A stretch of DNA of 64,000 nucleotides from contig NZ_FZNY01000002.1 in assembly GCF_900188275.1 (NCBI RefSeq), positions 186,001 to 250,000 on the forward strand, in the 5' to 3' direction. The translations under genes were made by a program, and so were the position numbers. Origin of the DNA: Dokdonia pacifica. Its GTDB lineage: Bacteria > Bacteroidota > Bacteroidia > Flavobacteriales > Flavobacteriaceae. The first letter of the stretch is position 1, and each line of letters opens with the position of its first letter. Under the pieces are notes generated by a model. That model did not search any database, was not told the DNA's origin, and saw only the letters and a list, made by a program, of their open reading frames with translations. Of this stretch, positions 6,090 through 63,497 are shown in pieces.

Positions 6090-7298
6090 TTATTTATTTA
6101 CACCTGCAAAATCTAAAATAATTTTATCTGATTTTTTAGGTAAGGTCTTAAATTCATCGTGAGCAACTAGGTATACTACGATTTCCGCTTTCGCGAAAGC
6201 ATCCTCATATTGCGTTAATTTAAAAACTTTATGTTCTTCTATATTTGGCTCTACAATATAAAATTCTTCATCATTTGCATCTTGCAATACCTTTTGAGCA
6301 ATATATTTTGCAGGAGACTCCCTTAAATCATCAATATTTGGTTTAAATGCAAGTCCCATTATTGCAATTTTTGGTTTACGACCATGATCTAATTGAAATT
6401 GAAGTTTTGCATTTTTAACCTGTTCTGCACACCAAAAAGATTTATAATTATTAATTTCTCTTGCTTTACCAATAATTTGAGATTCCATTGGGAAATCTGC
6501 AACTATAAAATAAGGATCTACTGCAATACAATGCCCTCCTACACCACAACCTGGTTGTAAAATATTAACACGAGGATGTTTATTTGCAAGATTAATAAGA
6601 TCCCAAACATTTATATCTGCTTTAGCACAAATAAGAGAAAGTTCATTAGCAAATGCGATTTGAACATCTCTAGAAGAGTTTTCTACAAGTTTACACATCT
6701 CGGCTGTTCTTGCATTGGTAGGATGTAATTCTCCTTTTACGTAACTACTATAAAAAGCAATTGCTTTTTCTGTACTTTCACTATTAACCCCTCCGATAAC
6801 TCTATCGTTATGAACTAATTCATACATAACATTACCTGGTAGAACACGCTCAGGACAATACGCTATATATAATTTATCTTTTAACTCTGGACGTTCTGAA
6901 TAAATCAAATCCATCATTTTTTCTGTAGTCCCAACAGGTGAAGTAGATTCAATAATATAGAGATCTCCTTCTTTTAATAATGGCAAGATTCCTTTTGTAG
7001 CAGCTTCTACAAAAGAGATATCCGGTTCATTTTTTCCTTTAAAAGGAGTAGGCACTACGATTAAATAATTATTTGCTTTAACAGCTTTTACATCGGCTTT
7101 AAGGAAACCTCTATTTACTGCCTTAGCAACAGCATCATCAAGTTCTGGTTCAACAATATGTATTTCTCCTCTATTAATGGTTTCTACAACCTTAGGGTTA
7201 ATATCTACTCCATGTACATTTACTCCATTTGAAGCAATTAGGGCTGCTGTTGGAAGGCCTATATATCCAAGGCCTATCATGACTACTTCTGGTTGCAT
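6090..7298 (-). CDS. wecC: UDP-N-acetyl-D-mannosaminuronate dehydrogenase
   Basis: This enzyme oxidises C6 of UDP-ManNAc twice with NAD+ to give UDP-ManNAcA. An N-terminal Rossmann motif (GLGYIG near residue 9), the ESTSPVGTT segment near 117 and the active-site GGHC with Cys257 are all present. The C-terminal UDP-binding domain begins near residue 305. Length 402 is normal for WecC. It follows wecB by 4 nt, giving the complete ManNAcA pathway. An in-frame copy of the genomic palindrome encodes AFAKA near the C-terminus, at a loop before the last strand, which the fold evidently tolerates. Confidence 0.93.
   Translation of the reverse strand: MQPEVVMIGLGYIGLPTAALIASNGVNVHGVDINPKVVETINRGEIHIVEPELDDAVAKAVNRGFLKADVKAVKANNYLIVVPTPFKGKNEPDISFVEAATKGILPLLKEGDLYIIESTSPVGTTEKMMDLIYSERPELKDKLYIAYCPERVLPGNVMYELVHNDRVIGGVNSESTEKAIAFYSSYVKGELHPTNARTAEMCKLVENSSRDVQIAFANELSLICAKADINVWDLINLANKHPRVNILQPGCGVGGHCIAVDPYFIVADFPMESQIIGKAREINNYKSFWCAEQVKNAKLQFQLDHGRKPKIAIMGLAFKPNIDDLRESPAKYIAQKVLQDANDEEFYIVEPNIEEHKVFKLTQYEDAFAKAEIVVYLVAHDEFKTLPKKSDKIILDFAGVNK
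6187..6200. repeat. genomic palindrome, in wecC
   Basis: GCTTTCGCGAAAGC. In wecC it encodes AFAKA. Confidence 0.9.
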
Positions 7299-7302
7299 GT
7301 AA

Positions 7303-8421
7303 TTATTTTTGGTTTTTTATGAATTCAACGACGCGTTTACAAGCTTTACCGTCTCCGTAAGGGTTATGTAATTTGCTCATTTTTGTAAAGCGATCTGGAT
7401 TATTTAATAAATCTAAAGTTTCTGATACAATTAAATCTTTATCAGTACCTACTAGTATAACTGTTCCTGCTTCTACAGCTTCTGGTCTTTCTGTAGTGTC
7501 TCTCATAACTAATACAGGTTTTCCTAAACTAGGCGCTTCCTCTTGTACCCCTCCACTATCTGTAATAATAAGTTTAGATCGATTCATTAACCATATAAAA
7601 TCTTGATAGGCTAATGGATCTATAAGCATTATATTAGTTACTTCTGAAAGAATACGTTTTACAGGTTCTTGAACTTTTGGATTAAGGTGTACTGGGTATA
7701 TAATAAGATGATTAGGTTTTTGTAGTGCGATTTCTTTTAATGCTTCACAAATTCTTACAAAACCATCTCCATGATTTTCTCTACGGTGACCAGTGACCAA
7801 GAGGACATCTTTTTGACCTATAGTAAGTTCTAAATCTTTAATAAGATCACTAGGATCACTATTCACTTTATTTACACTATCTAATAATGCGTCAATAACT
7901 GTATTACCTGTAACTATAATCTGATTAGATACTATATTTTCTTTAAGTAAATTTTGTTCTGACGTTATAGTAGGTGCGAAATGAAAATCTGCTATTCTAC
8001 CGGTTACTTGTCTATTAATTTCTTCTGGAAAAGGAGACCATTTATCATTTGTACGAAGTCCTGCCTCTATATGACATACTTTAGATTGGTTATAAAACCC
8101 CGCTATACTAGTAGCCATCGTGGTTGAAGTGTCACCATGAACAAATACATAATCAGGATTAAAAGATTCCAAAACTGGTTTCATACCTGTAATAATATCT
8201 GCTGTAAGTGAATAAAGGTTTTGACCCGGTTTCATTAGATTAAGATCAAAATCAGGAGTGATTTCAAAAAAGTCTAAAACTTGATCTAACATTTCTCTAT
8301 GTTGAGCAGTAACACATACCTTAGTTTCAAATATATCAGAAGAGCTTTGAAATGCTTTTACAAGTGGCGCCATTTTTATTGCCTCTGGTCTTGTGCCAAA
8401 TACTATCAGAACTTTTTTCAA
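7303..8421 (-). CDS. wecB: UDP-N-acetylglucosamine 2-epimerase (non-hydrolysing)
   Basis: WecB interconverts UDP-GlcNAc and UDP-ManNAc, the step before WecC. The protein (372 residues, normal length) shows the N-terminal FGTRPEAIKMAPL motif, HGDTSTTMA, HIEAGLRT with the catalytic glutamate, FPEEINRQ, GHRRENHG and SGGVQEE. The start is TTG: the conserved KKVLIVFGTRPEA begins right after it and no ATG precedes it. It is the first gene after a 160-bp gap that holds a good promoter element, so it may head its own transcription unit as well as being read from upstream. Confidence 0.95.
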   Translation of the reverse strand: MKKVLIVFGTRPEAIKMAPLVKAFQSSSDIFETKVCVTAQHREMLDQVLDFFEITPDFDLNLMKPGQNLYSLTADIITGMKPVLESFNPDYVFVHGDTSTTMATSIAGFYNQSKVCHIEAGLRTNDKWSPFPEEINRQVTGRIADFHFAPTITSEQNLLKENIVSNQIIVTGNTVIDALLDSVNKVNSDPSDLIKDLELTIGQKDVLLVTGHRRENHGDGFVRICEALKEIALQKPNHLIIYPVHLNPKVQEPVKRILSEVTNIMLIDPLAYQDFIWLMNRSKLIITDSGGVQEEAPSLGKPVLVMRDTTERPEAVEAGTVILVGTDKDLIVSETLDLLNNPDRFTKMSKLHNPYGDGKACKRVVEFIKNQK

Positions 8422-8465
8422 ATCAATTAAAATTTGGTTATTTATATATGTAAATAAGGGGGGTG

Positions 8466-8473
8466 CAAATATA
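8466..8473 (-). promoter_or_regulatory. promoter -7 element (TATATTTG) before wecB
   Basis: On the minus strand TATATTTG fits the Bacteroidota consensus TAnnTTTG. It lies about 45 nt before the wecB start, in the only gap longer than 150 bp inside the polysaccharide locus. I see no clear TTG at the -33 position. The rest of the gap (8422-8581) is AT-rich with no other structure that I can see. Confidence 0.5.
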
Positions 8474-8581
8474 AAGTCTTTATACTTGATAAACTAATTT
8501 TAAGATTTATCTACATATAATATTTAATATATTGATTTTCAGATAATTGACATTGACAGCTAAACCTCATTACATTCAAAT

Positions 8582-10901: not shown

Positions 10902-11428
10902 TAATCTAGAATCCTTCGGTTTGTAGTTTTTTGAGCTGGATTTCCAGTGTAAACACCGTAAGGCTCTGTATTTTTTGCAAGGATTGCCCCTGCTCCAATA
11001 ATAGACCCTTCAGCTATATGAGTTACAGAAGGTAATATAATTGAACCAGCACCTACCCAAACATAATCCTCTATTTTTAGTGATGAAAAAACAATAGGAT
11101 TCTGTTTCCAGTTTTTATGACCGTCATGGATCTTATGATTATGAGTAAAAATTTTAACGCCTTCAGAAATAGCTATTTTATCACCCATTGTAATACCTCC
11201 TGAATAATCAATATATGTATCTGCTCCTATATTAACTTCTCCTTTACATAAGAAATGGGCGTCTTTATTAAAATGAGCCATTGAAATGATTACTTTCTCA
11301 CCAACATATAGTTGTGGTGAACGATAATATGTACGATATAAAAACCATTTCAACCTTCTGAAGCCTCTTACATTAAACAATGGAGAGTTTCTCACTAAAA
11401 GAATAAATAATTTGATGATTTTTCTCAA
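10901..11428 (-). CDS. left-handed beta-helix acyltransferase
   Basis: This 175-residue hexapeptide-repeat protein is the third of its type in the locus. His98 in FTHNHKIHDG is the likely catalytic residue, DYVWVGAGSIILPSVTHI is the C-terminal coil turn, and it ends with GVYTGNPAQK, the usual last loop. It has the architecture of WcaF/WbbJ-type acetyltransferases. A TTG start is used; an ATG nearby is out of frame. It should acylate a repeat-unit sugar. It stands 116 bp downstream of the SGNH gene, a gap where I see no convincing promoter or terminator. Confidence 0.82.
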   Translation of the reverse strand: MRKIIKLFILLVRNSPLFNVRGFRRLKWFLYRTYYRSPQLYVGEKVIISMAHFNKDAHFLCKGEVNIGADTYIDYSGGITMGDKIAISEGVKIFTHNHKIHDGHKNWKQNPIVFSSLKIEDYVWVGAGSIILPSVTHIAEGSIIGAGAILAKNTEPYGVYTGNPAQKTTNRRILD

Positions 11429-11544
11429 GATGACATTCTGTTTCTAGATGCTGAATATAATCATATTATCCTTTAAATACATAGCCTTTAAAAAGATAAT
11501 AATGTAGGAAGATACTTTTTAAATTTTAATAACTAGCACATTAG

Positions 11545-13904: not shown

Positions 13905-13912
13905 TATGCTTT

Positions 13913-14779
13913 TTATATAATTTGTTGCAACGCTTTATTCCAATCAGGGGAATTGACACCAAAGGTTTCAACTATTTTTGTGGAATCCAAGATACTGTTT
14001 TTTGGACGTTTTGCCACTGTAGGGTAAGCATCAGATGTTGTCGCTCGTAATTTTACATCTAATTGTGAATAATCAAATATCGCTTTCGCGAAAGCGTACC
14101 AAGTAGTAACACCGCTATTGCTATAATGATATATACCTCTATATGAATCATCAAATCGAGTGATCATTTGGAAGATCGCATCTGCCAAATCATTTGCGAA
14201 AGTTGGAATTCCATGTTGATCATTAACGACAGTAAGCTCCTCTCTTTCGTCACCTAAGCGTACCATCGTTTTATAAAAATTATGACCGTAACCACTAAAT
14301 AGCCATGAAGTACGCACTATAGCATACGTAAGATTATCTGTGTTTTGAATGGCATGTTCTCCTGCTAATTTTGACTTTCCATAAATAGTCTGAGGATTGG
14401 GTATATCTTCTTCTGTATAAGGTGTATCAGAATTCCCATCAAAAACATAATCTGTAGAGATGTGAATAAGTGTTATGGAATATGAGGCACATAATGTAGC
14501 CAAATGACCAACAGCATGTTCATTTAGCAAATATGCATCTTCTTGATGACTTTCTGCAGCATCTACTGCTGTGTATGCCGCTGTGTTAATTATGACATCT
14601 GGTTGATGTACCTCAATAGCATCTTTAATAGATGCAACAGCGGTTATATCAAGCATTTCTCTTGTGGCAAATACACATTCATAGGTAACAAACTGAGAAG
14701 CTATTTCTTGAAAAGCATTTCCTAACTGACCATTTGCACCAGTAATAAGAATTTTTTTATTTGATGTAGTAAGACGCAT
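13913..14779 (-). CDS. rmlD: dTDP-4-dehydrorhamnose reductase
   Basis: RmlD carries out the last step of dTDP-L-rhamnose synthesis, NADPH reduction of dTDP-4-keto-L-rhamnose. The extended SDR protein (288 residues) has GANGQLG at the nucleotide site, HISTDYVFDG and the catalytic YGKSKLAGE. The rmlB-A-C-D order is complete and compact with gaps of 0-9 nt and one 4-nt overlap. An in-frame palindrome copy encodes AFAKA in the C-terminal part, after the GVTTWY segment. Confidence 0.94.
   Translation of the reverse strand: MRLTTSNKKILITGANGQLGNAFQEIASQFVTYECVFATREMLDITAVASIKDAIEVHQPDVIINTAAYTAVDAAESHQEDAYLLNEHAVGHLATLCASYSITLIHISTDYVFDGNSDTPYTEEDIPNPQTIYGKSKLAGEHAIQNTDNLTYAIVRTSWLFSGYGHNFYKTMVRLGDEREELTVVNDQHGIPTFANDLADAIFQMITRFDDSYRGIYHYSNSGVTTWYAFAKAIFDYSQLDVKLRATTSDAYPTVAKRPKNSILDSTKIVETFGVNSPDWNKALQQII
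14081..14096. repeat. genomic palindrome, in rmlD
   Basis: CGCTTTCGCGAAAGCG, full copy. In rmlD it encodes AFAKA. Confidence 0.9.
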
Positions 14780-14783
14780 TGTC

Positions 14784-16190: not shown

Positions 16191-17230
16191 GATGTATACA
16201 TTTTTGAGTAATACTCTTTATAGTCACCAGAAGTAACATTTGTTAACCACACTTTATTGTTCATGTACCAATCTACAGTAGCTTTTAATCCTTGTTCAAA
16301 GGTAACTGAGGGCTTCCACCCTAGCTCTTTGTTTATTTTTGATGCATCTATCGCATAACGTTTATCGTGACCAGGACGATCTTTTACATATGTAATAAGG
16401 GATGCAGATGTACCACGCTTTCGCGAAAGCGTATCATCCATCATTTCACATAACAAATGAACAAGATCAATATTTTTCCACTCATTAAAACCGCCTATAT
16501 TATAAGTTTCACCTATAGTTCCCTTATGCAGAATAGTGTCAATTGCAATCGCATGGTCTATTACATATAACCAATCTCTAGTGTAATTGCCATCTCCATA
16601 AACCGGTAAAGGTCGCATCTCTATGATATTATTGATAAATAATGGAATTAATTTCTCTGGAAAATGATTTGGCCCATAATTATTTGAGCAATTTGAGATA
16701 ATATAGGGCAAATCGTAAGTTTCTCCATAAGCTCTTACAAAATGATCAGAACTTGCTTTTGAAGCTGCATAAGGCGAATTAGGACTATAAGAAGTATTTT
16801 CTGTAAAAAGCCCTTCTGCTCCTAATGAACCATACACTTCATCTGTACTAATATGGTAAAATAAGTGCCCTTCTTTCTGTTGCCATATAGACTTGCAGGC
16901 ATTTAACAAATTCATGGTTCCCATGATATTTGTCTTTACAAATGCAAGTGGATCTTTAATAGATCTATCTACATGAGATTCGGCGGCTAGATGTATTACT
17001 TTATCAAATTTATAATTCTCAAAAAGGGTTTGTATATGAGATGCATCAGTAATATCTGCTTTGATAAAAGTATAATTAGGTAATGTGTCTATATCATGTA
17101 GGTTTTCTAGATTACCAGCATACGTCAAAGCATCTAGATTATAAATATGATATTCTGGATACAAAGTTACTAGCCTACGCACTACATGCGAGCCTATAAA
17201 ACCAGCGCCTCCTGTAACCAAAATCTTCAT
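16187..17230 (-). CDS. rmlB: dTDP-glucose 4,6-dehydratase
   Basis: RmlB converts dTDP-glucose to dTDP-4-keto-6-deoxyglucose with bound NAD+. The protein (347 residues) shows [11 protein letters not shown] at the N-terminus, HISTDEVYG with the Asp-Glu pair, and the catalytic [13 protein letters not shown] with Tyr and Lys. A palindrome copy inside the gene encodes LSRKR in an insert-like loop (about residues 265-275) where family members vary in length. That suggests the repeat was added without harm. Its ATG overlaps the stop of the dehydrogenase gene by one base. Confidence 0.95.
16416..16431. repeat. genomic palindrome, in rmlB
   Basis: CGCTTTCGCGAAAGCG, full copy, read in another frame than in rmlD, giving LSRKR. 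Confidence 0.9.
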
Positions 17231-19726: not shown

Positions 19727-20608
19727 ATGAAGTTGTTTTCAACACTTATTTTTCTCACACTAGTAGTAACACAATGCCAACCGCAAGATTATGGAGTATT
19801 AGATTACTATATGACACTACCTGATCTATTGGAAGAAAATTCAGGTATTTCTATCTCTCAGAATAAGACTCATATATATGCCATTAATGATTCAGGAGGT
19901 ACAGCAACTGTATTTTCAATAAATATAAAGCATCAAGAAATCACTCAAGACATTACAATCACCAATGCTCAAAACATAGATTGGGAAGATCTCGCTAGTG
20001 ATGGAAATAATTTATTTATAGGTGATTTTGGGAATAATGAAAATAAGAGAAAGGATCAAACCATATATTGGATAGAAAATATTGATCAAACTAAACCTGG
20101 TTCTTTTTCCGCTTTCGCGAAAAAGACCACATTCATTTTTGAAGATCAAAAGAAATACCCTCCTAAAAAAGGAAATCAAAATTTTGATGTAGAAGCTTTT
20201 ATAGTATTCAAGTCTCATTTTTATTTATTTACCCGTAATCGTTCAAGTCACAAAAAATTTGACGGCACAACCAAAGTCTATAAAGTTCCTGTAAAAGAGG
20301 GACCACAAACAGCTATTCTTATAGATGAATTTAAAACCTGTCCAGACCGTGATGATTGCCAGGTAACTAGTGCTGCTATCCATCCAGAAACGGGAAAAAT
20401 TGCACTTTTAAGCTATAATAAAGTTTGGATACTTGAGGGATATAAAGAGGATCGTTTCTTTTCAGGATCTGTAACTAAAATTAAACTAAAACATAGCTCT
20501 CAGAAAGAAAGCGTTACTTTTAAAGATGCCAATACACTCTTTATTTCTGAAGAGGCATCTTCAAAAAAACAAGGAAATCTATATACGTTAGATTTAAAAA
20601 AAATCTGA
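19727..20608 (+). CDS. exported protein of unknown function, beta-propeller-like
   Basis: The protein (293 residues) has a hydrophobic N-terminus ending at Cys17. It may be a lipoprotein, but the Gln before Cys is unusual for a lipobox. The rest is rich in short beta strands with recurring patterns (NIDWEDLASDGNNLFIGDFG, FDVEAFIVFKSHFYLFTRN, ESVTFKDANTLFISEE). That resembles six-bladed propeller proteins of the SdiA-regulated or phytase-like esterase type. A palindrome copy encodes AFAK at residues 129-132. The gene is divergent from the polysaccharide operon. I cannot name an activity. Confidence 0.75.
   Translation: MKLFSTLIFLTLVVTQCQPQDYGVLDYYMTLPDLLEENSGISISQNKTHIYAINDSGGTATVFSINIKHQEITQDITITNAQNIDWEDLASDGNNLFIGDFGNNENKRKDQTIYWIENIDQTKPGSFSAFAKKTTFIFEDQKKYPPKKGNQNFDVEAFIVFKSHFYLFTRNRSSHKKFDGTTKVYKVPVKEGPQTAILIDEFKTCPDRDDCQVTSAAIHPETGKIALLSYNKVWILEGYKEDRFFSGSVTKIKLKHSSQKESVTFKDANTLFISEEASSKKQGNLYTLDLKKI
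20111..20122. repeat. genomic palindrome, partial
   Basis: GCTTTCGCGAAA with the last arm cut; it encodes AFAK in the beta-propeller-like gene. Confidence 0.85.
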
Positions 20609-22496: not shown

Positions 22497-22512
22497 CGCT
22501 TTCGCGAAAGCG
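22497..22512. repeat. genomic palindrome, upstream of kdsB
   Basis: CGCTTTCGCGAAAGCG, intergenic, 12 nt before the kdsB start. Confidence 0.9.
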
Positions 22513-31186: not shown

Positions 31187-32515
31187 TTAAAAATCATCAT
31201 CATTCATGAGCTCGTCTATCTTTTTAGCCTCCCATGCTTTATTAAAAATAGGATTCCATCCAAAAGTTTCTGCTGCATGCCCTATGACACCCCAACCCCA
31301 TCCTCCTATAGGAAATATAGCCCAAGGAAAAGAACCAGAACGTGCATTTAAAAAGATAAAAACAGGCACCATAATCAAGTAAATAGTAAAGTGAATATAA
31401 AACCCTTTTAATTTCTCCACCTTCTCTTTAGCTCGCTTATAACGCTTATCTTCAATATATTCCTTTTGTTTAGGTACAAATGCTTTTTGTTCTATAAGCA
31501 TAGGAATCGCAATCTCAAACGTAGCTCCATCATTTTTAATTCTAACTTCAGAATCTGTTAGTAAATGGTAACGTTGTTTGATATTATGCAATCCTACACC
31601 ACTACTCTTTTTGACTACTTGTTTTGCTTGAATATTATTTTTTACCACTAGCCTATTCCCATCTTCATAAATTTGAATATGTAATTTTTTACTAGGAGTT
31701 ACCATATTATGCTTTACAGCATTTTCAAGTAATAACTGTAATGATAATGGTACTACTTTCAACTCAGAATTTGATATATGATCAGGTATCTCTACAATGA
31801 TACTATCTTCAAAACGCATTTTGATCAAGTTCATATACGTACGAGCAAAAGCTAGTTCTTCATCTACAGGAACCAATTCTTTATTCTTTTGTTCAAGTAC
31901 ATAACGATATACTTTAGAGAGAGATGTAGTAAACTTCTGAGCTTGTCTTGGATTTTCTTCTATAAGACTCGCCAATACATTCAAGCTATTGAATAAGAAA
32001 TGCGGGTCTAATTGGTTTTTGAGTGCATCAAATTTCGCGGAAGCGGTTTTAGCAATAATCTTAGACTGCTTGACTTTACGATCTTGTATGTTTTTCCAAT
32101 AATAAAAACCATAAAAAAGCCCTGTAGAAACTAATGCGATGATAATGGATAAATAATAATCTTGTAAACGTTCACTTTCTAGGAAGGTTTCTAGAGGTTT
32201 ACCAGCTCTTATAACTTGTAAGAACACACGTATTAAAAATACCGTGATAAAAGTAGCCATCACACCGCTAAGTAGTCCAACAGCCACATTACGCATTTTC
32301 CAAAACTCAACACCATAACGGTCTATAAATGTTTTAAAAACAAACATATTGACCATATAAAGCGTTACAGAATACACTTGGTTTTGAAAAAAGAACTCAA
32401 AAACTTCTCCGCCATACCATGGGTTTCCTATAAGATATAGGATAATCCCGTGAACTATAAAGAAGACAAGTCCAAATACAAATGCTTTACCAAACTCTTT
32501 TAGGATATCCTTCAT
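31187..32515 (-). CDS. LytS-type histidine kinase fused to a 2TM domain
   Basis: The 442-residue protein has four N-terminal membrane helices (about residues 10-140), then the His_kinase (LytS/YehU) domain. KNQLDPHFLFNSLNVLASL carries phospho-acceptor His172, LQLLLENAVKHNM is the N-box, and GVGLHNIKQRY is the G-box. From about residue 355 a 2TM domain follows (RYKRAKEKVEKLKGFY, two helices, AWEAKKIDELMNDDDF). Kinases of this family normally phosphorylate LytTR response regulators; none lies within this cluster. It is 14 nt after the TPR-like secreted protein gene and 24 nt before the 2TM genes, so one operon is likely. Confidence 0.88.
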   Translation of the reverse strand: MKDILKEFGKAFVFGLVFFIVHGIILYLIGNPWYGGEVFEFFFQNQVYSVTLYMVNMFVFKTFIDRYGVEFWKMRNVAVGLLSGVMATFITVFLIRVFLQVIRAGKPLETFLESERLQDYYLSIIIALVSTGLFYGFYYWKNIQDRKVKQSKIIAKTASAKFDALKNQLDPHFLFNSLNVLASLIEENPRQAQKFTTSLSKVYRYVLEQKNKELVPVDEELAFARTYMNLIKMRFEDSIIVEIPDHISNSELKVVPLSLQLLLENAVKHNMVTPSKKLHIQIYEDGNRLVVKNNIQAKQVVKKSSGVGLHNIKQRYHLLTDSEVRIKNDGATFEIAIPMLIEQKAFVPKQKEYIEDKRYKRAKEKVEKLKGFYIHFTIYLIMVPVFIFLNARSGSFPWAIFPIGGWGWGVIGHAAETFGWNPIFNKAWEAKKIDELMNDDDF

Positions 32516-33162: not shown

Positions 33163-33449
33163 CTGTGTTGTTTTTTGATGGTGTAAAAGTGTGCATTTAT
33201 ACGCTTTCGCGAAAGCAAAAACAACCCAACTGTCATTTTTAGCGACCGAACTGTTATTCTAAAATGAATCAAGACCTACATAAATTAAGAATCATGACTA
33301 TAGCGTCGTCTTAATTTCTAAATCTTAAAGCGATCATGTGCCATTTTCGCGGAAGCGAAACAAAAATTAATATGTTAAAAAGTGCTAAAAAACAACGAAT
33401 CTGTAAGCAAGACTGCTTATAAAAGACTTAATTTCAAAAAAGAATTGCT
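33163..33449. other. divergent intergenic region with two palindrome copies
   Basis: This 287-bp region separates the LytS-2TM operon from the thioredoxin-like gene. It holds the exact palindrome at 33202-33216 and a variant GCTTCCGCGAAA on the minus strand at 33345-33360, plus AT-rich spacer. I see no strong TAnnTTTG element on either strand. Confidence 0.4.
33202..33216. repeat. genomic palindrome, intergenic
   Basis: CGCTTTCGCGAAAGC between the TPR-like gene and the thioredoxin-like gene; a degenerate copy lies at 33345-33360. Confidence 0.85.
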
Positions 33450-34445: not shown

Positions 34446-34458
34446 CGCTTTCGCGAAA
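34446..34458. repeat. genomic palindrome, partial, intergenic
   Basis: CGCTTTCGCGAAA just after the thioredoxin-like gene stop. Confidence 0.8.
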
Positions 34459-36030: not shown

Positions 36031-36046
36031 CGCTTTCGCGAAAGCG
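36031..36046. repeat. genomic palindrome, intergenic
   Basis: CGCTTTCGCGAAAGCG, between the small membrane protein gene and SulP. Confidence 0.9.
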
Positions 36047-42827: not shown

Positions 42828-42843
42828 CGCTTTCGCGAAAGCG
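42828..42843. repeat. genomic palindrome, intergenic
   Basis: CGCTTTCGCGAAAGCG, 64 nt before the YbjQ-type gene; it creates a false upstream extension of that reading frame. Confidence 0.9.
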
Positions 42844-46809: not shown

Positions 46810-46825
46810 CGCTTTCGCGAAAGCG
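46810..46825. repeat. genomic palindrome, intergenic, with extended arms
   Basis: CGCTTTCGCGAAAGCG extended outward by TATA on each side, giving 24 bp of perfect symmetry between the nuclease and GH9 genes. Confidence 0.9.
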
Positions 46826-46902: not shown

Positions 46903-46910
46903 TATCTTTA
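46903..46910 (+). promoter_or_regulatory. promoter -7 element (TATCTTTA), leaderless geometry
   Basis: TATCTTTA (one change from TAnnTTTG) lies 4 nt before the chosen ATG of the GH9 gene. The spacing equals that of the nuclease and 35342 genes. Confidence 0.5.
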
Positions 46911-46914
46911 TGGA

Positions 46915-48615
46915 ATGAGAAACTTCATACTATTACTAGCCATCCTAACATTGGTAAGCTCTTGTAAAGAAGCCTTACCAGAATACACAATAGCAAATGC
47001 AAATACCATTAGACTTAATCAAGTTGGGTATTATCCACAGGCTTCAAAAAAAGCCATTATAACAGATACAACACAGGCAACTGTTTTCTATCTTGTTGAT
47101 CAACAATCACATGAATCTATATTTCAAGGAACTCTTTCTGAAAAACTAACTTGGAAACTTGCGGGCGAAACGGTACGAGTTGCTGATTTTTCAACCTTCA
47201 CAACACCTGGAAATTATAGTGTATATATAGAAAATGTAGGGTACTCCTACCCTTTTGAAATAAAAGAACATGTGCTCTCCGATGCTTTTACAGCAAGTGT
47301 CAAATCCTTATATTATCAACGTGCAAGTATTGCTTTAGAAGAAAAGCATGCAGGCGTTTGGGCACGTAATGCAGGACATCTAGATAAAGCGGTTACATTT
47401 CACTCTTCATCAGGTCGCGAAGGCACAAAAGACGCTCCAGGAGGTTGGTATGATGCCGGAGATTTTGGAAAGTATGTTATTAATGGTGCATTTCCATTAG
47501 GGCAAATGATGACATTATATGAACAATATCCTTCAGTATTACCCGACACGAGTCTTAATATTCCTGAAAGCGGTAATAAAACACCAGATATTCTAGATGA
47601 ATTTAAATATGAACTTGATTGGTTATTAACCATGCAAGATGATGATGGAGGTGTATTTTTTAAATTGACTACCAAGCGTTTTACAGGGATGACACTTCCT
47701 GAAAAAGGAAAAGAAGAACGTTTTATTATAGGGAAAGGTACTGCGTCAAGTCTTGATTTTGCAGCAGTAGCTGCAAAAGGCTATCGACTTTTTAAAGAGA
47801 TAGATGCTGCGTATGCAAATAAATGTCTCGCTTCCGCGAAAAAAGCCTGGGAATGGTCAAAAGCAAATCCTACGGTTGCCTTTTCAAATCCAGAAGATAT
47901 CGTTACTGGAGAGTACGGAGATGGCAATTTTTCTGAAGAATGGTTTTGGGCCGCTGCCGAGTTATATCTAAGTACTGGAGATGAAGAGTATGTAACCTCT
48001 CTTAAGCAAAGCACTGTCAATCTCAATAATTATAAAGGCGGGAGTTGGAATAATTATATGAAATACATTGGGGCTTTTGCATTGATAGATCAGTCTAAAG
48101 ATGAAGCCATCGTGAATGTATTAAAGAACAATATTGTACAAGCGGCAGATAAGCTTGTATCTACTGCAACAACCAATGATTACTTTCAACCTATTACGGT
48201 TTTTAATTGGGGTTCTAATAGTGATGTTTTAAATGCAGCTATGATTATTGCACAGGCATATCGTATTACTAAAAAACCAGAATACTTAGTAGCTGTACAG
48301 GAAATCACAGATTATGTGTTTGGTAAAAATGCGATTGGTTATAGTTTTATTACTGGACATGGCGATAAAACGCCTCTATATATCCATCACAGGCAAAGTG
48401 CTGGAGATGGCATAGAAGCACCTGTACCAGGTTTTATTTCTGGCGGACCTAACAATGCAAAACAAGATCGTAACGATGTTACGTATCCTGAAAACACCTC
48501 TCCTATGAATTCATGGGTAGATCAAACACCAAGTTATGCGAGTAACGAAATTTGCTTGAACTGGAACTCGGCTGCTGTATATGTTTTAGGGTTTCTAGAA
48601 CAGGAAAGTAAATAA
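46915..48615 (+). CDS. GH9 family cellulase lipoprotein
   Basis: The protein (566 residues) has a lipobox with Cys17 (LTLVSSC), an N-terminal Ig-like CelD domain (about 35-115) and a GH9 (alpha/alpha)6-barrel catalytic domain. Near residue 175 GGWYDAGDFGKYV holds the catalytic base Asp. IHHRQS near residue 487 and ASNEICLNWNSAAVYVLGF near residue 543 give the conserved His/Arg and the catalytic Glu. It should hydrolyse beta-1,4-glucan or a related beta-glucan at the cell surface. The ATG at the lipoprotein signal is chosen over one 16 codons upstream. A palindrome variant encodes ASAKKAW in the middle. Confidence 0.9.
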   Translation: MRNFILLLAILTLVSSCKEALPEYTIANANTIRLNQVGYYPQASKKAIITDTTQATVFYLVDQQSHESIFQGTLSEKLTWKLAGETVRVADFSTFTTPGNYSVYIENVGYSYPFEIKEHVLSDAFTASVKSLYYQRASIALEEKHAGVWARNAGHLDKAVTFHSSSGREGTKDAPGGWYDAGDFGKYVINGAFPLGQMMTLYEQYPSVLPDTSLNIPESGNKTPDILDEFKYELDWLLTMQDDDGGVFFKLTTKRFTGMTLPEKGKEERFIIGKGTASSLDFAAVAAKGYRLFKEIDAAYANKCLASAKKAWEWSKANPTVAFSNPEDIVTGEYGDGNFSEEWFWAAAELYLSTGDEEYVTSLKQSTVNLNNYKGGSWNNYMKYIGAFALIDQSKDEAIVNVLKNNIVQAADKLVSTATTNDYFQPITVFNWGSNSDVLNAAMIIAQAYRITKKPEYLVAVQEITDYVFGKNAIGYSFITGHGDKTPLYIHHRQSAGDGIEAPVPGFISGGPNNAKQDRNDVTYPENTSPMNSWVDQTPSYASNEICLNWNSAAVYVLGFLEQESK

Positions 48616-53219: not shown

Positions 53220-56200
53220 CTATAGTCGTAATCCAAAGCCAAAATTAATTCGGAGGCCATCATCAGAGTTAAAAGCTCCAAACTGCCCAGATATCATATC
53301 GACAGCATTTATCCAGAAACCGCCTCCTACAGAAGTGTGCCACACATCTCTATTACTTGTAAAATCATCAGGAAACCATACTCGCCCAATATCGGCGCCT
53401 CCAAAAATTCCTATTTGAATAGGTAGTAATCCTGTTTTAAAACGATTAAAACTATATCTTAGATCAGCGCTTCCCGCTAAGGCAGATTTTCCAGTAAATC
53501 GCTCATTTCTAAAACCACGTAATCCATTACGCGCTCCAAGCGTTGCGCCTTGATAGAATTCAAAAGAATCGCCTAGATTAAATTGCCCTTGTACTTTTGT
53601 TTTTAGTACCAGTTTTTTATTTCGCGAAAGCGAGTTATAAAACCCAAGGGAAGGTGCGATATATCCATAACCACTTTTGGTATCTTCAAGATTTAATTTT
53701 GATCCTATTTTAAACAAAAACTCCATTCCTTTAGAAGGGTTTGCTGGGTTATTTGAACTTAAAAATTCATAAGCAAATTCTACACCTCCAAAAAACTGAG
53801 CATCAAAAACACTAGAGAATGAAGGATTAAAGGCTTCAGTAATAAAACGACCCTCTGTTGCTTCTACTTCTATACGTTCTACTTTTGCTGTAGCACTTAA
53901 CCTACTTCCATAATTATTATCCTTGACAACGCCTATATGTGCTTCAGAAATACTTGTTTTAACACGGTTAAAATCCAAATCTAAATCATCATCAAAGTTT
54001 TCTGTTCCATTTCCGAAACCAAAAAAGTTTAAAGCAAAGTTCTCACTAGTAAATCGAGCGCCTACTTTAAGATTCCACTCCCCTAGCGAGTTTGCAAACT
54101 CTCCATTATAACTAAAATCAAAACCACTGGTTGCAAAGAAATACCCTGCTTTAAAAACGTGCTTTCTATGAAAAGGATCATTCTTAAATCCTTTTACAGT
54201 ATAGGTGTCTTGAAGCCCAATTACAATACCATCATCTGGATTAAAACCAATAGATGGTAATACACTGTTTACTTTGGTAATGGTTTTATTGAAATCATAG
54301 GTATTATGAGAATAAATATTTGATTTTTTAATGTGAGCGCCTCCTCTTTTTACAATCGTATTAGGTTTTGTTTTATGATCGTAAATTTTGATTTTACGTC
54401 CATCTTCAATTGTATACGTATCATTATTCTGACCTCCTATAATACGTGTGAAAATTGGTTTTCTCCCTTTTCCGCTTACGCGAAAAGTATCATCGTCATC
54501 TAATCCGTAAATCCATAATTCTTTAGTCTCATTTGGATTAATCAATCTATCAATATATGGTTCTTGAACTCCTCCATTTTTAATACGTGATACTCGTACA
54601 CGTGTCCCATTTGCCTCTCTAGTGATTTCAAAATGATCGTCTTTATCGGTTCCTTTAATGACTACTAGTTTTGAAAGATGATCGTAATATCTAGCTGCAA
54701 TATCTACGAGATTCCCTCTACGTTCTTTGAGTTTGCTTTTGATGGTTTCTAGAACATCATCTTGAACTTCTTCTGGAAAAGCTAAGAAGGCATTATCAAT
54801 AACTGCATCTGTTAAGTTTTCTTGAATATATGTGGCTTGAGCGATCCAATGCGCTTTTGTGGAATTAGGCAATAATGCGTGGTCTAGCTTGCTTCCTGCT
54901 ATATTTACCCATTTTATATCATCTAACGTTCCATCATATTCCTGAAATTGTCTTGCTGGAGGGATTAACGCTCTTGTAAAATCTAATAGACGTCCATCAT
55001 AATTTGAAAAAGCTTGATCACGGTCTCTAGGAATAGGTTTGTACTCTTTAATACCATTAGCATCAAAACGTGCCCAACGCCACTGATCTGCATGACGATC
55101 CCAATCGCCTAATAACATATCAAATAAACGTGCTTTTATGAATGCTCCTTCATGTATTTGGTATTCTTCATCTTTTCTAAGATGCTCAAGAACATCTGAA
55201 GTGCTTTCAATCTTATCTGGTTTTCCAAAAGAAGCCACATCTAGAAAACCATCATCTGGACGTTCTTCTATAATATATAATTCGTCTCCATATGTCTCAT
55301 TATATTTTCCTAAAGCTGGATGTTTAGGCATCCATACTAGTTGAGGATTTGTATGGTATACATCTATAGCATCTGCAAGATCTCCTATTGCAAGACTTGC
55401 ATATGGATGGCTTGATGTATAAAAATCAAGAATCACCTCTTCTGTAAACGTATCTCTAAACTCTTCTTGTACAAAGTTGTCTTTAAACACTACTGATTGT
55501 AAAAATTGCACCGCGCTCTTTTTAACAGCACGTAGGGCAAAATTTCTTCCGTCTTTATCTACTAATCGTAGTGATCTAGTTTGGTGTCCGCCTCCTTTAC
55601 GATCTATAGTAACGCCTCCCATTAGGGTATCTAATGTCAAAACGGGGACTTTAACATCAGTTCCATATACGTAGCGATAATGATCTCCCCATAGTCTAGT
55701 GTACGACGCACTTTTTTCTGTATCTTCTTTGGAATAGGCTGTTGCTTTTTTTGTAGGGTCAAAACGTGAAGGTAATCCGCTAGCATCATAGGTAGCAGTT
55801 TTGGGATGTACTTCAGTTTCAAATAAAAACGATGCATTTCCATCTTTTGCACTATAGTAACGCACTTTTGAAGAACCATCATTATAAACATCTAGTACCG
55901 CAAAACCTTGCCCTCCGTAAGCAAATAGTCCATTATCTCGTAAAGTTACTGCCGATTTTTTTGCACCAGATCCACTTACAATCTGTTTAATTCCGTTATT
56001 ATCTATATACTGCAAATTATGCTCATGACCAGAAACAAAAATGGCCTTATTCGTATCATACGCCAATGTTTCCAATCGACTCATAAGCTCATCATATCTT
56101 TGATTTGCTCTATCTTGAGGTGATACGCCTCCTTGGCTACGTATTTGAGTTATTAAGGTAGCTAATCCAGGTAATGGAATCTTTGATTGAAATGGAAACA

Positions 56201-56927
56201 AATGTTTTTCTAAGGCATACGCACCTCCATGAATACCGTTAGTATACATAGGGTGATGCATCGCAATAAGAATCGTTTTTTCATTATTCTTTTTAAATTT
56301 ACTTTCTATCTCTAAGAAAAACTCATTTCTAGTTCGGATGTCACACTCGTCATTCATAGTGGGGTTTTTATCCCAATCTTCAAGATACCACTGTGTATCT
56401 ATAAGGAGTAATTCAATTTCATCCGAAACAGAAACCGTTTCTATAGGACATCCGTTTTCTGGTAAGAATGTGTTTTTGCCTAATACATCTTCTACATATT
56501 TTTCTTGTCGTTTTAGGCCTTTTAAACCATCTCCAAACCAATCATGATTCCCCGGAATAAAGACAACCTTTCCATTAAAATTCTCAACAATATTTAGTTG
56601 GGCTTTTAATTTATGTTCTGCATCTGCCCTATCCTCTGATGTTTTTGTTGGTAGTCCTTCTTCATAAATATTATCTCCTAAAAAAATGGTATAATCATTT
56701 GTAGAAGTTACCGTATCCAATACTTTTTCTAAAGCAATTAATGCATCTGTGCTTCCATTAGGTACCGCACCACCGGCATCGCCTATTAAGTAAAAGGAAG
56801 CCGTTTTTTTATGCTTTCGCGAAAGCGTACTTTGCCCATTAACCTCTACATATTGAGGCATATAAGTAGCACAACCAAGCATAAAAATGAGAATAAAACT
56901 ATAAACAAAAAGGTATTTTATCTTCAT
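53220..56927 (-). CDS. metallophosphoesterase fused to a BamA-like beta barrel
   Basis: The 1235-residue protein is a predicted lipoprotein/signal-peptide protein (Cys19, LGCATYMPQ). Residues about 40-360 are a calcineurin-like phosphoesterase: FYLIGDAGG, LGDNIYEEG, IPGNHDWFGDG, MHHPMYTNG and GHEHNLQY give all metal-binding motifs. A middle region with unknown fold follows (RDRDQAFSNYDGRLLDF). The end (about 900-1235) is a BamA/Omp85-type 16-stranded barrel (GLRGFRNERFTGKSALAG). It would sit in the outer membrane with a phosphoesterase on one side. A palindrome copy lies near the N-terminus (LSRK) and a 13-bp part in the barrel. Confidence 0.88.
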   Translation of the reverse strand: MKIKYLFVYSFILIFMLGCATYMPQYVEVNGQSTLSRKHKKTASFYLIGDAGGAVPNGSTDALIALEKVLDTVTSTNDYTIFLGDNIYEEGLPTKTSEDRADAEHKLKAQLNIVENFNGKVVFIPGNHDWFGDGLKGLKRQEKYVEDVLGKNTFLPENGCPIETVSVSDEIELLLIDTQWYLEDWDKNPTMNDECDIRTRNEFFLEIESKFKKNNEKTILIAMHHPMYTNGIHGGAYALEKHLFPFQSKIPLPGLATLITQIRSQGGVSPQDRANQRYDELMSRLETLAYDTNKAIFVSGHEHNLQYIDNNGIKQIVSGSGAKKSAVTLRDNGLFAYGGQGFAVLDVYNDGSSKVRYYSAKDGNASFLFETEVHPKTATYDASGLPSRFDPTKKATAYSKEDTEKSASYTRLWGDHYRYVYGTDVKVPVLTLDTLMGGVTIDRKGGGHQTRSLRLVDKDGRNFALRAVKKSAVQFLQSVVFKDNFVQEEFRDTFTEEVILDFYTSSHPYASLAIGDLADAIDVYHTNPQLVWMPKHPALGKYNETYGDELYIIEERPDDGFLDVASFGKPDKIESTSDVLEHLRKDEEYQIHEGAFIKARLFDMLLGDWDRHADQWRWARFDANGIKEYKPIPRDRDQAFSNYDGRLLDFTRALIPPARQFQEYDGTLDDIKWVNIAGSKLDHALLPNSTKAHWIAQATYIQENLTDAVIDNAFLAFPEEVQDDVLETIKSKLKERRGNLVDIAARYYDHLSKLVVIKGTDKDDHFEITREANGTRVRVSRIKNGGVQEPYIDRLINPNETKELWIYGLDDDDTFRVSGKGRKPIFTRIIGGQNNDTYTIEDGRKIKIYDHKTKPNTIVKRGGAHIKKSNIYSHNTYDFNKTITKVNSVLPSIGFNPDDGIVIGLQDTYTVKGFKNDPFHRKHVFKAGYFFATSGFDFSYNGEFANSLGEWNLKVGARFTSENFALNFFGFGNGTENFDDDLDLDFNRVKTSISEAHIGVVKDNNYGSRLSATAKVERIEVEATEGRFITEAFNPSFSSVFDAQFFGGVEFAYEFLSSNNPANPSKGMEFLFKIGSKLNLEDTKSGYGYIAPSLGFYNSLSRNKKLVLKTKVQGQFNLGDSFEFYQGATLGARNGLRGFRNERFTGKSALAGSADLRYSFNRFKTGLLPIQIGIFGGADIGRVWFPDDFTSNRDVWHTSVGGGFWINAVDMISGQFGAFNSDDGLRINFGFGLRL
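53620..53632. repeat. genomic palindrome, partial, in the BamA-like barrel
   Basis: TTTCGCGAAAGCG; encodes SLSRN in the barrel. Confidence 0.85.
56813..56827. repeat. genomic palindrome, in metallophosphoesterase N-terminus
   Basis: GCTTTCGCGAAAGCG; encodes LSRKH just after the lipoprotein part. Confidence 0.9.
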
Positions 56928-58170: not shown

Positions 58171-58186
58171 TTTTACATCAAATCAT

Positions 58187-60709: not shown

Positions 60710-61846
60710 ATGAAAAGAATATTCATAGCCGCTCTAGGACTTTTGGTTTTTGCTTGCGCGAAAAAAGAAAACTATAGTATAAAAGGTACTGCAATTGGCA
60801 TTCCAGACGGTACCGAAATATATCTTCAAGAGCTAGGAAAAAACAACAAACGTAATTCGTTAGATACTGCCAAGGTAATGGACGAAAGTTTTGTATTTAC
60901 AAAACCTTCAGCTGAAGGTAAAGGATTACTCCTACTTTCTACGGCCTTAGATAGACAGCAACTCATCCTTGTAAAAGATCAAGCGCCTCTTACAGTTACA
61001 TTATACAAAGATAGTATCCCGTCTTCTATTGTAACAGGAAGTGCAGAGAATGAGCTTTTTAATACGTACACTAAAAAAAGCAGACAACTAAATAAGAAAA
61101 AAGCTGAACTCAGATTAGCATTAAATAAGGCTAGACAAGAAACTGATGGTATCATGGTTACTGAGTACTCGTCTCAAATACAAGAACTTGATAAACAATA
61201 CATCAATTCTAAAAAAGAAATCATAGATGGCAATTCTAATAGTATGGTAGCCATTATGGCGCTGTCTGATCTTATAAACGCTAAAGCGCTTAAAATAGAA
61301 GAAACAGAAAACTATTATGACGGATTAGCTTCAGACATACGTAAAACTACCTTAGGAAATAGTATCAAAGGATATATTGCACAAAGTAAATCACAACGTG
61401 CTGCATCTAATTTGGCAAGTGTAGGTAATAAAGCTCCTGCGTTTAGTGCACAAACCCCAGATGGGAAAGAATTAGCATTATCAGAAACTCTTGGAAAATA
61501 TACTATTGTAGATTTTTGGGCATCTTGGTGTAAGCCTTGTCGTTTAGAGAATCCTAATGTAGTACGTGTCTATAACAAATATCACGACAAAGGATTAAAT
61601 ATCATAAGTGTTTCTTTAGACAGACCTGGACACAAAGAACGATGGATCAGAGCTATTGAAAAAGATCAAATGGATTGGTATCACGTTTCTAATCTTCAAC
61701 ATTGGCAAGACCCGATTCCAAAATCGTATGGTGTTCGTGCAATTCCTGCTACTTTCTTATTAGATGAAGAAGGCACTATTATCGCAAAAAACCTACGAGG
61801 ACAAGCCTTAGAGAATAAGATTGCTGAGTTGTTGGGAGATAGTTAA
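60710..61846 (+). CDS. TlpA-like thioredoxin lipoprotein with DUF4369-like N-terminus
   Basis: The protein (378 residues) is a lipoprotein (Cys16, LLVFACAKK). It has a DUF4369-like N-terminal domain (about 25-110: YSIKGTAIGIPDGTEIYLQ), a helical middle region (about 120-215) and a C-terminal thioredoxin/AhpC-TSA domain. WASWCKPCRLENP near residue 274 is the redox CxxC, and AIPATFLLDEEG has the cis-Pro loop. It is a periplasmic disulfide reductase of the TlpA/ResA kind. Chosen start is the ATG before the lipobox; a longer frame exists. Confidence 0.87.
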   Translation: MKRIFIAALGLLVFACAKKENYSIKGTAIGIPDGTEIYLQELGKNNKRNSLDTAKVMDESFVFTKPSAEGKGLLLLSTALDRQQLILVKDQAPLTVTLYKDSIPSSIVTGSAENELFNTYTKKSRQLNKKKAELRLALNKARQETDGIMVTEYSSQIQELDKQYINSKKEIIDGNSNSMVAIMALSDLINAKALKIEETENYYDGLASDIRKTTLGNSIKGYIAQSKSQRAASNLASVGNKAPAFSAQTPDGKELALSETLGKYTIVDFWASWCKPCRLENPNVVRVYNKYHDKGLNIISVSLDRPGHKERWIRAIEKDQMDWYHVSNLQHWQDPIPKSYGVRAIPATFLLDEEGTIIAKNLRGQALENKIAELLGDS

Positions 61847-62125: not shown

Positions 62126-62137
62126 AGAAAAATTAGA

Positions 62138-62282
62138 AACGGAAAGTTTCATTTTTTTTGTACATCAAAAAATTACAAAAAAAGTGAAACAACCACCCCT
62201 ATCGTTAGTAATAATCAAGGATACAACAAGCTCTCTACCACACGATAGTCTATACTATTATCGTCATTGATAAAGTATTCAA
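62138..62282 (-). repeat. direct repeat copy B (end of the intact gene and its terminator)
   Basis: This copy covers the last 22 codons of the gene at 62215 plus its downstream hairpin (62146-62190). Confidence 0.8.
62146..62190 (-). terminator. terminator of the 162-residue gene
   Basis: Arms GTTTCATTTTTTTTGTA and TACAAAAAAAGTGAAAC pair with one mismatch around an 11-nt loop on the minus strand; A/T-rich with a T run, suitable for termination. Confidence 0.6.
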
Positions 62283-62703
62283 TTAACAATTCTCCCCAAG
62301 TATTGCCATCAGAAAAATCAGCAATAATCCAGCGATGGTTTAAAAGATGTACTTGATTTACTTGAAAAGGACGTTCATCTCCTTCATAAGGAATAAAGTC
62401 ATTTCCAGACGAAGTATTCTTTCCTATAATACCATCAGTAACTTGTTGTGTGACAAAATTAATATCTATAGTGTCATTTTCATAGTACTCATATGCATTA
62501 GAATTGGTTCGCAAACCAAAGTAGGTTGCTTCTTCCAAACGTTCTTGTAATACACCAATACTATCTATAGCCGTTTGATGTTTAACTTCCAACTTTGTCA
62601 TTATTTTTTGCTGACTCTCATAAAACTTTTTGTTATGTACATATTGATATACAATCCATAAAGCAGCAAATAAAAATAGATATAAAAAGATATTACGTTT
62701 CAT
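62215..62703 (-). CDS. membrane-anchored protein of unknown function
   Basis: The 162-residue protein has an N-terminal membrane helix (NIFLYLFLFAALWIVYQYV), a coiled-coil segment (about 30-60) and a small folded domain (EGDERPFQVNQVHLLNHRWI, DFSDGNTWGELLIEYFINDD). No family is recognised. It starts at the stop of the MBL hydrolase gene (1-nt overlap), so both are co-transcribed. Its last 22 codons recur as a fragment 158 bp away, which suggests a former tandem paralogue. Confidence 0.75.
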   Translation of the reverse strand: MKRNIFLYLFLFAALWIVYQYVHNKKFYESQQKIMTKLEVKHQTAIDSIGVLQERLEEATYFGLRTNSNAYEYYENDTIDINFVTQQVTDGIIGKNTSSGNDFIPYEGDERPFQVNQVHLLNHRWIIADFSDGNTWGELLIEYFINDDNSIDYRVVESLLYP

Positions 62704-63497
62704 TAGGGTATCGTTAATGTTAATCCATCATAAGCAAGATGCACATTGTCAGGAAGTTTAGCCTCTACTTCAGCATGGAATCCCATATGATGACTTATAT
62801 GTGTAAAATAGGTTTTCTTTGGTTGAATTTGTTTTATAAGTTCTAATGCTTCTGCAACATTTAAATGTGTGTAATGTTCTTCATAACGTAATGCATTGAT
62901 CACAAGTATGTCGAGTCCCTGTAATTTTTTTAACTCTTCAGAAGCAATGGTTTTTATATCTGTTAAATATGCGATTTTATCAAACCGATATCCAAACACT
63001 TGCAACTTACCATGATACCCTTCGATTGGAATTACTTCCATCTCTCCTAGAGATAATGACTCATTATTTAGTACTTCATGTGTAGATACACTCGGTGCGC
63101 CTGGGTATCTATTTTCGGTAGCAAATATATAGTCAAAACGTTCTTTTAGAGTAGTTAACACCCGTCGATGTGCATAAATAGAGATCGCTCCTTGTCTAAA
63201 AACAAAAGGGCGTATATCATCTAGACCTGCCACATGATCTGCGTGTTCATGCGTAAATAAAATACCATCAAGAGAAACAAGATCTCCTGAAGGTGTTCGC
63301 TTTCGCGAAAGCGTACCCAGCATTTGTGCCCTAAAATCAGGACCACAATCTATCACATAATGATACTGATCCCATTCGATAAGAACCGAAACACGAAGAC
63401 GTGTATCTCTAGGATCATCACTTAAACATACAGGATGATCACTTCCTATAACAGGAATGCCTTGAGATGTGCCAGTACCTAAAAATGTAATTGTCAA
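62703..63497 (-). CDS. MBL-fold metallo-hydrolase, PhnP-like
   Basis: The 264-residue protein has the metallo-beta-lactamase motif FTHEHADHVAGLDDIRPF near residue 78, an N-terminal TFLGTGTSQGIPVIGSDHPV, and HISHHMGFHAEVE near the C-terminus with the remaining metal His. It resembles PhnP (phosphodiesterase of the phosphonate pathway), but no phosphonate genes are nearby. The start is TTG with the conserved GTGTSQG right after it. A palindrome copy encodes LSRKR (about residues 63-67) in a loop before the metal motif. A good TAnnTTTG element lies upstream. Confidence 0.87.
   Translation of the reverse strand: MTITFLGTGTSQGIPVIGSDHPVCLSDDPRDTRLRVSVLIEWDQYHYVIDCGPDFRAQMLGTLSRKRTPSGDLVSLDGILFTHEHADHVAGLDDIRPFVFRQGAISIYAHRRVLTTLKERFDYIFATENRYPGAPSVSTHEVLNNESLSLGEMEVIPIEGYHGKLQVFGYRFDKIAYLTDIKTIASEELKKLQGLDILVINALRYEEHYTHLNVAEALELIKQIQPKKTYFTHISHHMGFHAEVEAKLPDNVHLAYDGLTLTIP
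63298..63313. repeat. genomic palindrome, in MBL hydrolase
   Basis: CGCTTTCGCGAAAGCG, full copy; encodes LSRKR. Confidence 0.9.

Follow-up and report, generated by a model that had tools for sequence, protein, structure and literature searches.

An Evenly Spaced, Highly Iterated 12-bp Word in Dokdonia Genomes as a Possible DNA-Uptake Sequence

The 64,000-nucleotide stretch of the Dokdonia pacifica genome analyzed here (contig NZ_FZNY01000002.1, positions 186,001 to 250,000; hereafter the window) contains a short GC-rich word, TTTCGCGAAA, repeated many times in coding and non-coding DNA. Which part of this word is recognized, and what could so many copies serve? Our analysis points to a directional 12-bp unit, GCTTNCGCGAAA, which in Dokdonia is mostly fused into head-to-head double sites that are spaced evenly along the chromosome. 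The repeat most resembles the DNA uptake sequences (DUS) of Neisseriaceae and the uptake signal sequences (USS) of Pasteurellaceae; that it serves DNA uptake is the explanation ranked first here, with slightly less than even confidence.

Abundance and Distribution

All 13 copies of TTTCGCGAAA reported for the window by the first-pass annotation were found (core starts at 6189, 14084, 16419, 20113, 22500, 33205, 34449, 36034, 42831, 46813, 53620, 56815, and 63301), seven of them inside open reading frames (ORFs) and six between ORFs, as it had stated. Its estimate of well under one expected copy also stands: 100 dinucleotide shuffles averaged 0.04 copies and never yielded more than 1, and Markov models gave 0.05-0.06 (orders 1-3) and 0.23 (order 4), the higher values at orders 5 and 6 (4.4 and 11.6) arising because the repeat itself populates those tables. 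The GC content, put at about 35%, was measured as 32.9%, slightly lower. A genome count near background and absence from relatives had been named as the outcomes that would speak against enrichment; the whole genome (5,520,745 bases in 31 contigs) contains 1195 copies, compared with 15 for the reversed-pattern control, and all 17 Dokdonia congeners among the 59 genomes searched have 481-1107 copies each.

Among the other relatives, 40 of 41 carry 0-12 copies, the exception being G027 with 595. The 12-mer CTTTCGCGAAAG exceeds 400 copies in five of 299 genomes of the family, namely the window's genome, its congener G011, G027, G248, and G203, and ranges from 0 to 21 in the other 294. G027 and G248 belong to one genus (perhaps Nonlabens) and G203 to another; two genera other than Dokdonia therefore carry hundreds of copies. 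An exact 20-mer search of named genomes gave at least 98 stretches, and among the 80 loci listed, 75 belong to Dokdonia or Nonlabens, the remaining five being from Flavobacteria bacterium BBFL7 (three), Muricauda sp. TY007 (one), and a Flavobacteriaceae metagenome-assembled genome (one). In the RpoB tree (30 genomes), nine Dokdonia and G203 form a clade with support of 0.997, and G027 and G248 are found elsewhere on a long branch with weak support (0.80 and 0.55). Because of this weakly supported placement, one origin and two origins of the repeat are both possible. Matches in viral contigs (at least 120 stretches with the 14-mer) are not informative, since a rough calculation predicts some two hundred chance matches in so large a collection.

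Across sizes of 3.3 to 5.5 Mb, most of the near-complete Dokdonia genomes have about 1000-1200 copies; exceptions are G013 (4.3 Mb, 663 copies), G010 (3.1 Mb, 700), and G004 and G017 (about 3 Mb, 832 and 821). As copy number is similar across genome sizes, larger genomes are marked more sparsely, the window's genome still evenly. No dispersed word at comparable density was seen in 100-kb samples of four non-host genera. Iterated words of G030 and G024, considered as rival dispersed repeats, were rejected as mostly local tandem arrays. The array in G030 (contig C15, about 33-37 kb, L369 and neighbors) repeats roughly every 180 bp around CAGTTCGAGTGTCC and TTCTCGATAC; in G024 (contig C14, about 102.9-104.9 kb, L373), GAGATCACTG recurs locally in 58- and about 420-bp steps. 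G023, from the same family, has 16 copies of GCTTTCGCGBAA against only 2 of TTTCGCGAAA, possibly a related repeat.

Structure of the Unit

Samples totaling 1.24 Mb from three Dokdonia genomes (the window's genome, G016, and G009) were used to study the unit. Its minimal form is the 12-bp GCTTNCGCGAAA, with 11 specified bases, and its usual form in Dokdonia is two overlapping units placed head to head (GCTTTCGCGAAAGC) within a longer degenerate palindrome. Aligned sites of the window's genome make up a long near-palindrome, roughly TATACGCTTTCGCGAAAGCGTATA, with information declining outward and with flanks unlike those of G016 or G009.

The 355 cores of these samples have GC on both sides in 294 cases, on one side in 60, and on neither side in 1. 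From the arms alone, the constant presence of at least one GC arm is not significant (about 3 cores without arms expected; Fisher P 0.23), so the case for asymmetry comes from the N position. Units with a base other than T at this position (GCTTVCGCGAAA, or GCTT[A/C/G]CGCGAAA) were found 39 times against about 0.3 expected. The far-side GC is absent in 37 of them: both halves of the palindrome are damaged, and GCTT-N-CGCG-AAA across the center is whole. A single site has the mirror arrangement, in which the same types of change leave neither strand with a whole word. This disparity argues that the recognized unit is directional and that the palindromes of Dokdonia are two such units overlapping head to head. 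Over 18 Dokdonia genomes the GCTT[A/C/G]CGCGAAA form totals 1744 (37-134 each; reversed control 0-3) and the mirror pattern 337; comparison of position lists in G016 showed 20 of 25 mirror matches to overlap a whole unit on the opposite strand. Over the whole of G016 the far arm is present in 20 of 109 such units, a share above the 2 of 39 in the samples.

Other changes are rare. One-mismatch forms outside N that do not overlap a whole unit number 26 in the three samples against about 14 expected, with position 8 alone giving 13 against 3, while whole units number 687 against 0.4 expected. Thus, the degenerate copies postulated in the first-pass annotation amount inside the hosts to only about 1.8 times background. 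The five one-base variants it had listed (at 32033, 33345, 47829, 54473, and 60752) are real within one base, but all share the form GCTT[A/C/G]CGCGAAA, which makes them a regular class rather than products of random decay. The drop from zero to one mismatch is some 900-fold in Dokdonia; values of 92-fold for H. influenzae and 82-fold for N. gonorrhoeae, obtained by a different method, are given in PMC1939737.

The repeat had also been likened to HIP1, the highly iterated palindrome of cyanobacteria. It shares with HIP1 and the alternate HIPs an extremely iterated, GC-rich, palindrome-like word in both coding and non-coding DNA, and differs from them in phylum, in its asymmetric 12-bp unit, in the rarity of one-off copies, and in having no conserved partner methyltransferase in the three families tested; in G027, the symmetric form is nearly obligatory. 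In the Elhai model, such a word is made and kept by methylation-directed mismatch repair and is predicted to saturate at a set distance (PMC4390886); thousand-fold iteration of a GC-rich near-palindrome in AT-rich DNA would agree with it. However, one-off forms, described as common for HIP1 (PMC4390886), are rare in Dokdonia, and the model needs a methyltransferase. Searches of 59 genomes with each of three Pfam families showed PF00145 to match 8 of the 18 Dokdonia genomes, PF01555 4 (1 over the cut-off), and PF02086 12, and G005, G009, and G010 had no match to any of these families, G009 being a complete genome with 1074 copies. A methyltransferase partner was rejected for PF00145, PF01555, and PF02086, none of which is conserved in Dokdonia. 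To our knowledge, an asymmetric unit with 11 specified bases exceeds any methyltransferase site. We therefore regard a HIP1-like mechanism as improbable.

Placement and Spacing

When genes are defined by a simple ORF criterion, site density is about tenfold higher between them than inside them (per kb, 1.10 and 0.11 in the window's genome sample, 1.90 and 0.20 in G016). Tandem, divergent, and convergent gaps are all similarly site-rich, and coding copies occur in all three frames. The claim that two frames are used holds for the window (three AFAK-type and four LSR-type copies) but not elsewhere: a third frame, RFRES, was found at 12 of 45 coding sites in a 462-kb sample of the window's genome and at 19 of 74 in the G016 sample. 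Coding sites are found in every fifth of genes, most commonly in the first (14 of 45 and 22 of 74, respectively).

The sites are spaced more evenly than under a Poisson model. The index of dispersion in 20-kb windows is 0.36 in the window's genome (22 windows), 0.22 in G016 (20), and 0.38 in G009 (19), with a combined chi-square of 18.5 on 58 degrees of freedom (lower-tail P 1.7e-7). Only 2 of 94 gaps in four contiguous pieces of the window's genome are below 1 kb, compared with 21.7 +- 3.6 expected from 5000 re-placements that preserved the coding and intergenic classes, and none of the 5000 had a coefficient of variation of gaps as low as that observed. In G016, 3 of 66 gaps are below 1 kb against about 18 under an exponential distribution. 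Sites avoid each other at distances below 1 kb. The mean spacing is 3.2 and 4.6 kb, and density is level, with 5 to 9 sites per 20 kb around G016 and 3 to 9 around G009.

These features are shared by the main rival explanation, in which the sites bind a lineage-specific chromosome-organizing (nucleoid or segregation) protein with one anchor every few kilobases. Even spacing, exclusion below 1 kb, indifference to gene direction, and level density in the G016 and G009 samples would all be in keeping with it, as would a strict core with a graded symmetric flank and the dominance of double sites. Noc, matS, and KOPS signals have a regional or polar distribution from origin to terminus, but the 20-kb windows examined (20 of G016, 19 of G009) showed no regional bias of this kind. 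In addition, the asymmetric minimal unit is unlike a simple homodimer operator, the four non-host genera sampled lack a dispersed equivalent, and ParB-family genes are not expanded. A ParB paralogue as the reader was rejected on the latter count (1-2 genes in 13 Dokdonia, 1-3 in 25 other genomes). On balance, a chromosome organizer is a plausible but rather unlikely explanation.

A Chi-like signal for a recombination helicase-nuclease in break repair was also considered. Like Chi, the repeat is a directional word present about once per 3-5 kb, which the mean spacing matches, and double units would work from both sides. Known Chi sites have 5-8 bases, and the Dokdonia word is longer; unlike Chi, its single units have no replichore bias, their orientation with respect to local GC skew being 16 to 12 in G016 (28 units) and 19 to 18 in G009 (37 units). 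Even spacing with avoidance below 1 kb would be left unexplained. We consider this reading about as improbable as the HIP1-like one, or slightly more so.

The three largest site-free gaps are overlapped by 28 ORFs of at least 200 aa, ten of which were scanned: two encode subtilases, one each HTH_18, ABC, radical SAM, histidine kinase, and beta-lactamase-fold proteins, and three had no match at 1e-10. This repertoire, seen without a control set, suggests that the gaps may be accessory DNA. In the closest pair of sites (L228:9679-9721, G016), which follows a surE-like gene (assigned by eye), the two cores are separated by 33 bp, and a ComEC-type competence gene lies about 2 kb downstream of the pair. 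An autoregulated binder at this pair was rejected: apart from these two genes, the only neighbor seen is a 95-aa ORF without a Pfam match, and none of the three looks like a regulator.

Origin, Conservation, and Replacement of Sites

The gene encoding a 1235-aa protein (53220-56927, minus strand) carries a single unit with one arm lost (53620..53631, minus strand), where the core is whole in 10 of 21 aligned genes, its own included; a single unit GCTTACGCGAAA (54474..54485, plus strand), whole at the same codons in G001, G005, G007, and G017; and, near the N-terminus, a double site (56813..56826), the core of which is whole in 13 of the 21 genes. One site lies in a conserved FYNALSRN stretch, spelt CTT TCG CGA AA(T/C) in ten genes; at this position the other aligned genes encode the same or similar peptides by different codons, with no indel. 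In place of the unit at 54474 other orthologues have CAC, CAT, or AAA codons. The site at 56813, being in a gapped region of the alignment, was left out of this comparison. Insertion, which the first-pass annotation had allowed for, finds no support at these two sites, where orthologous genes differ by codon substitutions; at both, which belong to one gene, the word appears to have arisen by point substitution.

The same substitutions without indels count against a mobile or copied element, whether a repetitive extragenic palindromic (REP) sequence, a miniature inverted-repeat transposable element (MITE), or a terminator hairpin. Such an element could explain why the sites are dispersed, near-palindromic, and denser between genes, but mismatches in the two arms do not pair with each other more often than chance predicts, sites occupy tandem, divergent, and convergent gaps alike, and palindromes with an altered spacer number 0 or 1. 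We consider this origin extremely improbable. A hairpin or terminator was rejected, as there is no arm covariation and no preferred gap type.

At 84% identity or more, sites were conserved in 94 of 94 comparisons, and control 10-mers in 30-59%. In the bins from 66 to 80% identity the conserved fraction is 0.58-0.88 for sites and 0.03-0.14 for controls; in the 63-65% bin it is 0 of 7. These comparisons are directed pairs from one 20-kb locus and thus not independent. They bear out the earlier proposal that the constraint by which the sites are held acts on DNA and not on protein.

Sites seem also to be replaced. Seventeen Dokdonia genes at one locus were compared by the distance of the site from the stop of the same gene. 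In ten of them, a site is found at -393 from the stop (-405 and -480 in two), and none between there and +1.4 kb. Six of the seven genes without that site have another, at +161 to +163 in G009, G006, G012, and G008, at +48 in G010, and at +539 in G004; G013 has no replacement within 3 kb of the gene stop. This pattern suggests at least three replacement events, from three different positions at the one locus. Taken together, spacing and replacement imply that a second close site adds nothing and that a long site-free stretch is disfavored.

Outside the hosts, 17 clustered stretches (ten genomes, nine genera) contain 35 intact 14-mers and 7 in which a single core base differs, compared with 270 and 5 at Dokdonia loci (Fisher P 2e-4; the loci include orthologous copies), which suggests that the word decays by point mutation in other genera. 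However, sites of these islands outlast control 10-mers, with 28 of 49 kept at 75-79% identity (control 0.11) and 12 of 38 at 70-74% (control 0.07). Because of this better retention, simple decay is doubtful: either the islands move often through hosts, or the sites may still be read there. The word clusters L188-L204 are located in few-copy genomes (G116, G111, G224, G128, G326, G029, G121, G129, G337, and G191), and, among the matches listed, homology at 67-95% links many of the stretches from different genera. L188 and L189, read gene by gene, carry metal-efflux genes (RND pumps, P-type ATPase, CusB-like). Two sites at a distance of 933 bp recur in L189, L190, L191, and L193, and in L189 they lie within an efflux outer-membrane gene.

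Sites in the Window

Double sites are found inside a UDP-glucose/GDP-mannose dehydrogenase-type gene (6187..6200; gene 6090-7298, minus strand), an RmlD-type gene (14082..14095; gene 13913-14779, minus strand), and a sugar-nucleotide dehydratase-type gene (16417..16430; gene 16187-17230, minus strand). With its UDP-glucose dehydrogenase-, RmlD-, and dehydratase-type sugar-nucleotide genes, the region 6090-17230 is likely a polysaccharide cluster. Another double site (63299..63312) lies near the start of a metallo-beta-lactamase-fold gene (62703-63497, minus strand). The remaining ones are located between ORFs (22498..22511 and 42829..42842), between divergent ORFs (33203..33216), upstream of the plus-strand ORF 36142-37788 (36032..36045), and between two plus-strand ORFs (46811..46824), the last having long symmetric arms.

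Single units of the form GCTTTCGCGAAA occur on the plus strand inside ORF 19727-20608 (20111..20122; ORF on the plus strand) and directly past the plus-strand ORF 33450-34439 (34447..34458). Units of the form GCTTCCGCGAAA occur on the minus strand inside ORF 31187-32515 (32033..32044, with N = C, one of the variants mentioned above) and about 140 bp from the double site at 33203..33216 (33345..33356), and on the plus strand inside a GH9-type gene (47830..47841; gene 46867-48615, plus strand). One more single unit, GCTTGCGCGAAA, is at 60752..60763 on the plus strand.

DNA Uptake as the Favored Explanation

Like DUS and USS, the repeat is a short directional word in about a thousand or more copies, evenly spaced and without strand bias, preferentially non-coding, originating by point mutation, and restricted to lineages with clade-specific differences in the flanks. 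Even spacing, absence of orientation bias, non-coding copies above expectation, and point-mutation origin are among the USS and DUS traits described in PMC1939737 and PMC7811141, along with a steep drop from zero to one mismatch and with no gain in uptake from a second site within 100 bp. Unlike DUS and USS, the Dokdonia word belongs to a different phylum, is unrelated to them, consists mostly of fused head-to-head pairs, and has fewer one-mismatch copies. According to PMC7965970, natural competence occurs in two Riemerella species, assigned by that paper to Flavobacteriaceae, and R. columbina shows a preference for DNA of its own. Uptake is ranked first because uptake sequences show the same set of traits and because of this self-preferring transformation.

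The mechanism could be as follows. A protein would read the unit in one direction, its most likely identity being the DNA-binding step of natural transformation, and what matters would be the presence of a unit within every few kilobases of the chromosome. Fragments of own DNA that carry a unit would be preferentially taken up and would then recombine, so that sites would accumulate and spread at about the length of a transforming fragment by molecular drive. Double units would be enterable from either side. The full proposal, which we put forward tentatively, is that a DNA-uptake (self-recognition) sequence, the first of its kind in the phylum Bacteroidota, is shared by Dokdonia, a Nonlabens-like genus, and a third genus, in the form of a directional 12-mer mostly fused into two-way double sites and spaced evenly by a drive acting in the kilobase range.

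Several observations weigh against this proposal. First, the known uptake sequences treated in PMC1939737 are not palindromes, and the Riemerella study (PMC7965970) found no competence in Flavobacterium johnsoniae. Second, mismatch tolerance is stricter in Dokdonia than in known uptake sequences, and even spacing is expected of a chromosome-organizing protein as well. Third, the flanking C and G are both kept at 586 of 595 cores in G027 compared with 933 of 1195 in the window's genome (P 1e-38); both units seem to be needed in G027, and tolerance of one arm may be a Dokdonia trait. Fourth, when the units with N other than T are added, the index of dispersion rises to 0.54, 0.33, and 0.47, still sub-Poisson and somewhat less even, and it is only in G016 (P 1e-5), not the window's genome or G009, that these units avoid other sites. 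Finally, we know of no host species that is naturally competent and of no candidate uptake receptor in Bacteroidota, and no paper on natural competence of Dokdonia was found in the open-access literature. A ComEC-type gene was seen in G016, but DprA, which is at most a necessary part of competence, is present in 38 of 38 genomes examined, hosts and non-hosts alike. The window's genome contains a further DprA-family stretch (G000:C17:386981-387592) with an in-frame stop.

Significance

No report of this repeat was found in the open-access literature, subscription papers being mostly outside that search, and few highly iterated genomic words have a known job. The asymmetric unit, the even spacing with exclusion below 1 kb, and the replacement of sites at one locus suggest that spacing itself is seen by selection or drive. 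The analysis provides a precise word for DNA-uptake, protein pull-down, and modification tests in culturable marine bacteria. Passage through these hosts may also leave the word as a mark on DNA: islands with metal-efflux genes in other Flavobacteriaceae carry it, with point-mutated copies. If true, an uptake role would account for how members of these genera might distinguish their own DNA from that of other organisms.

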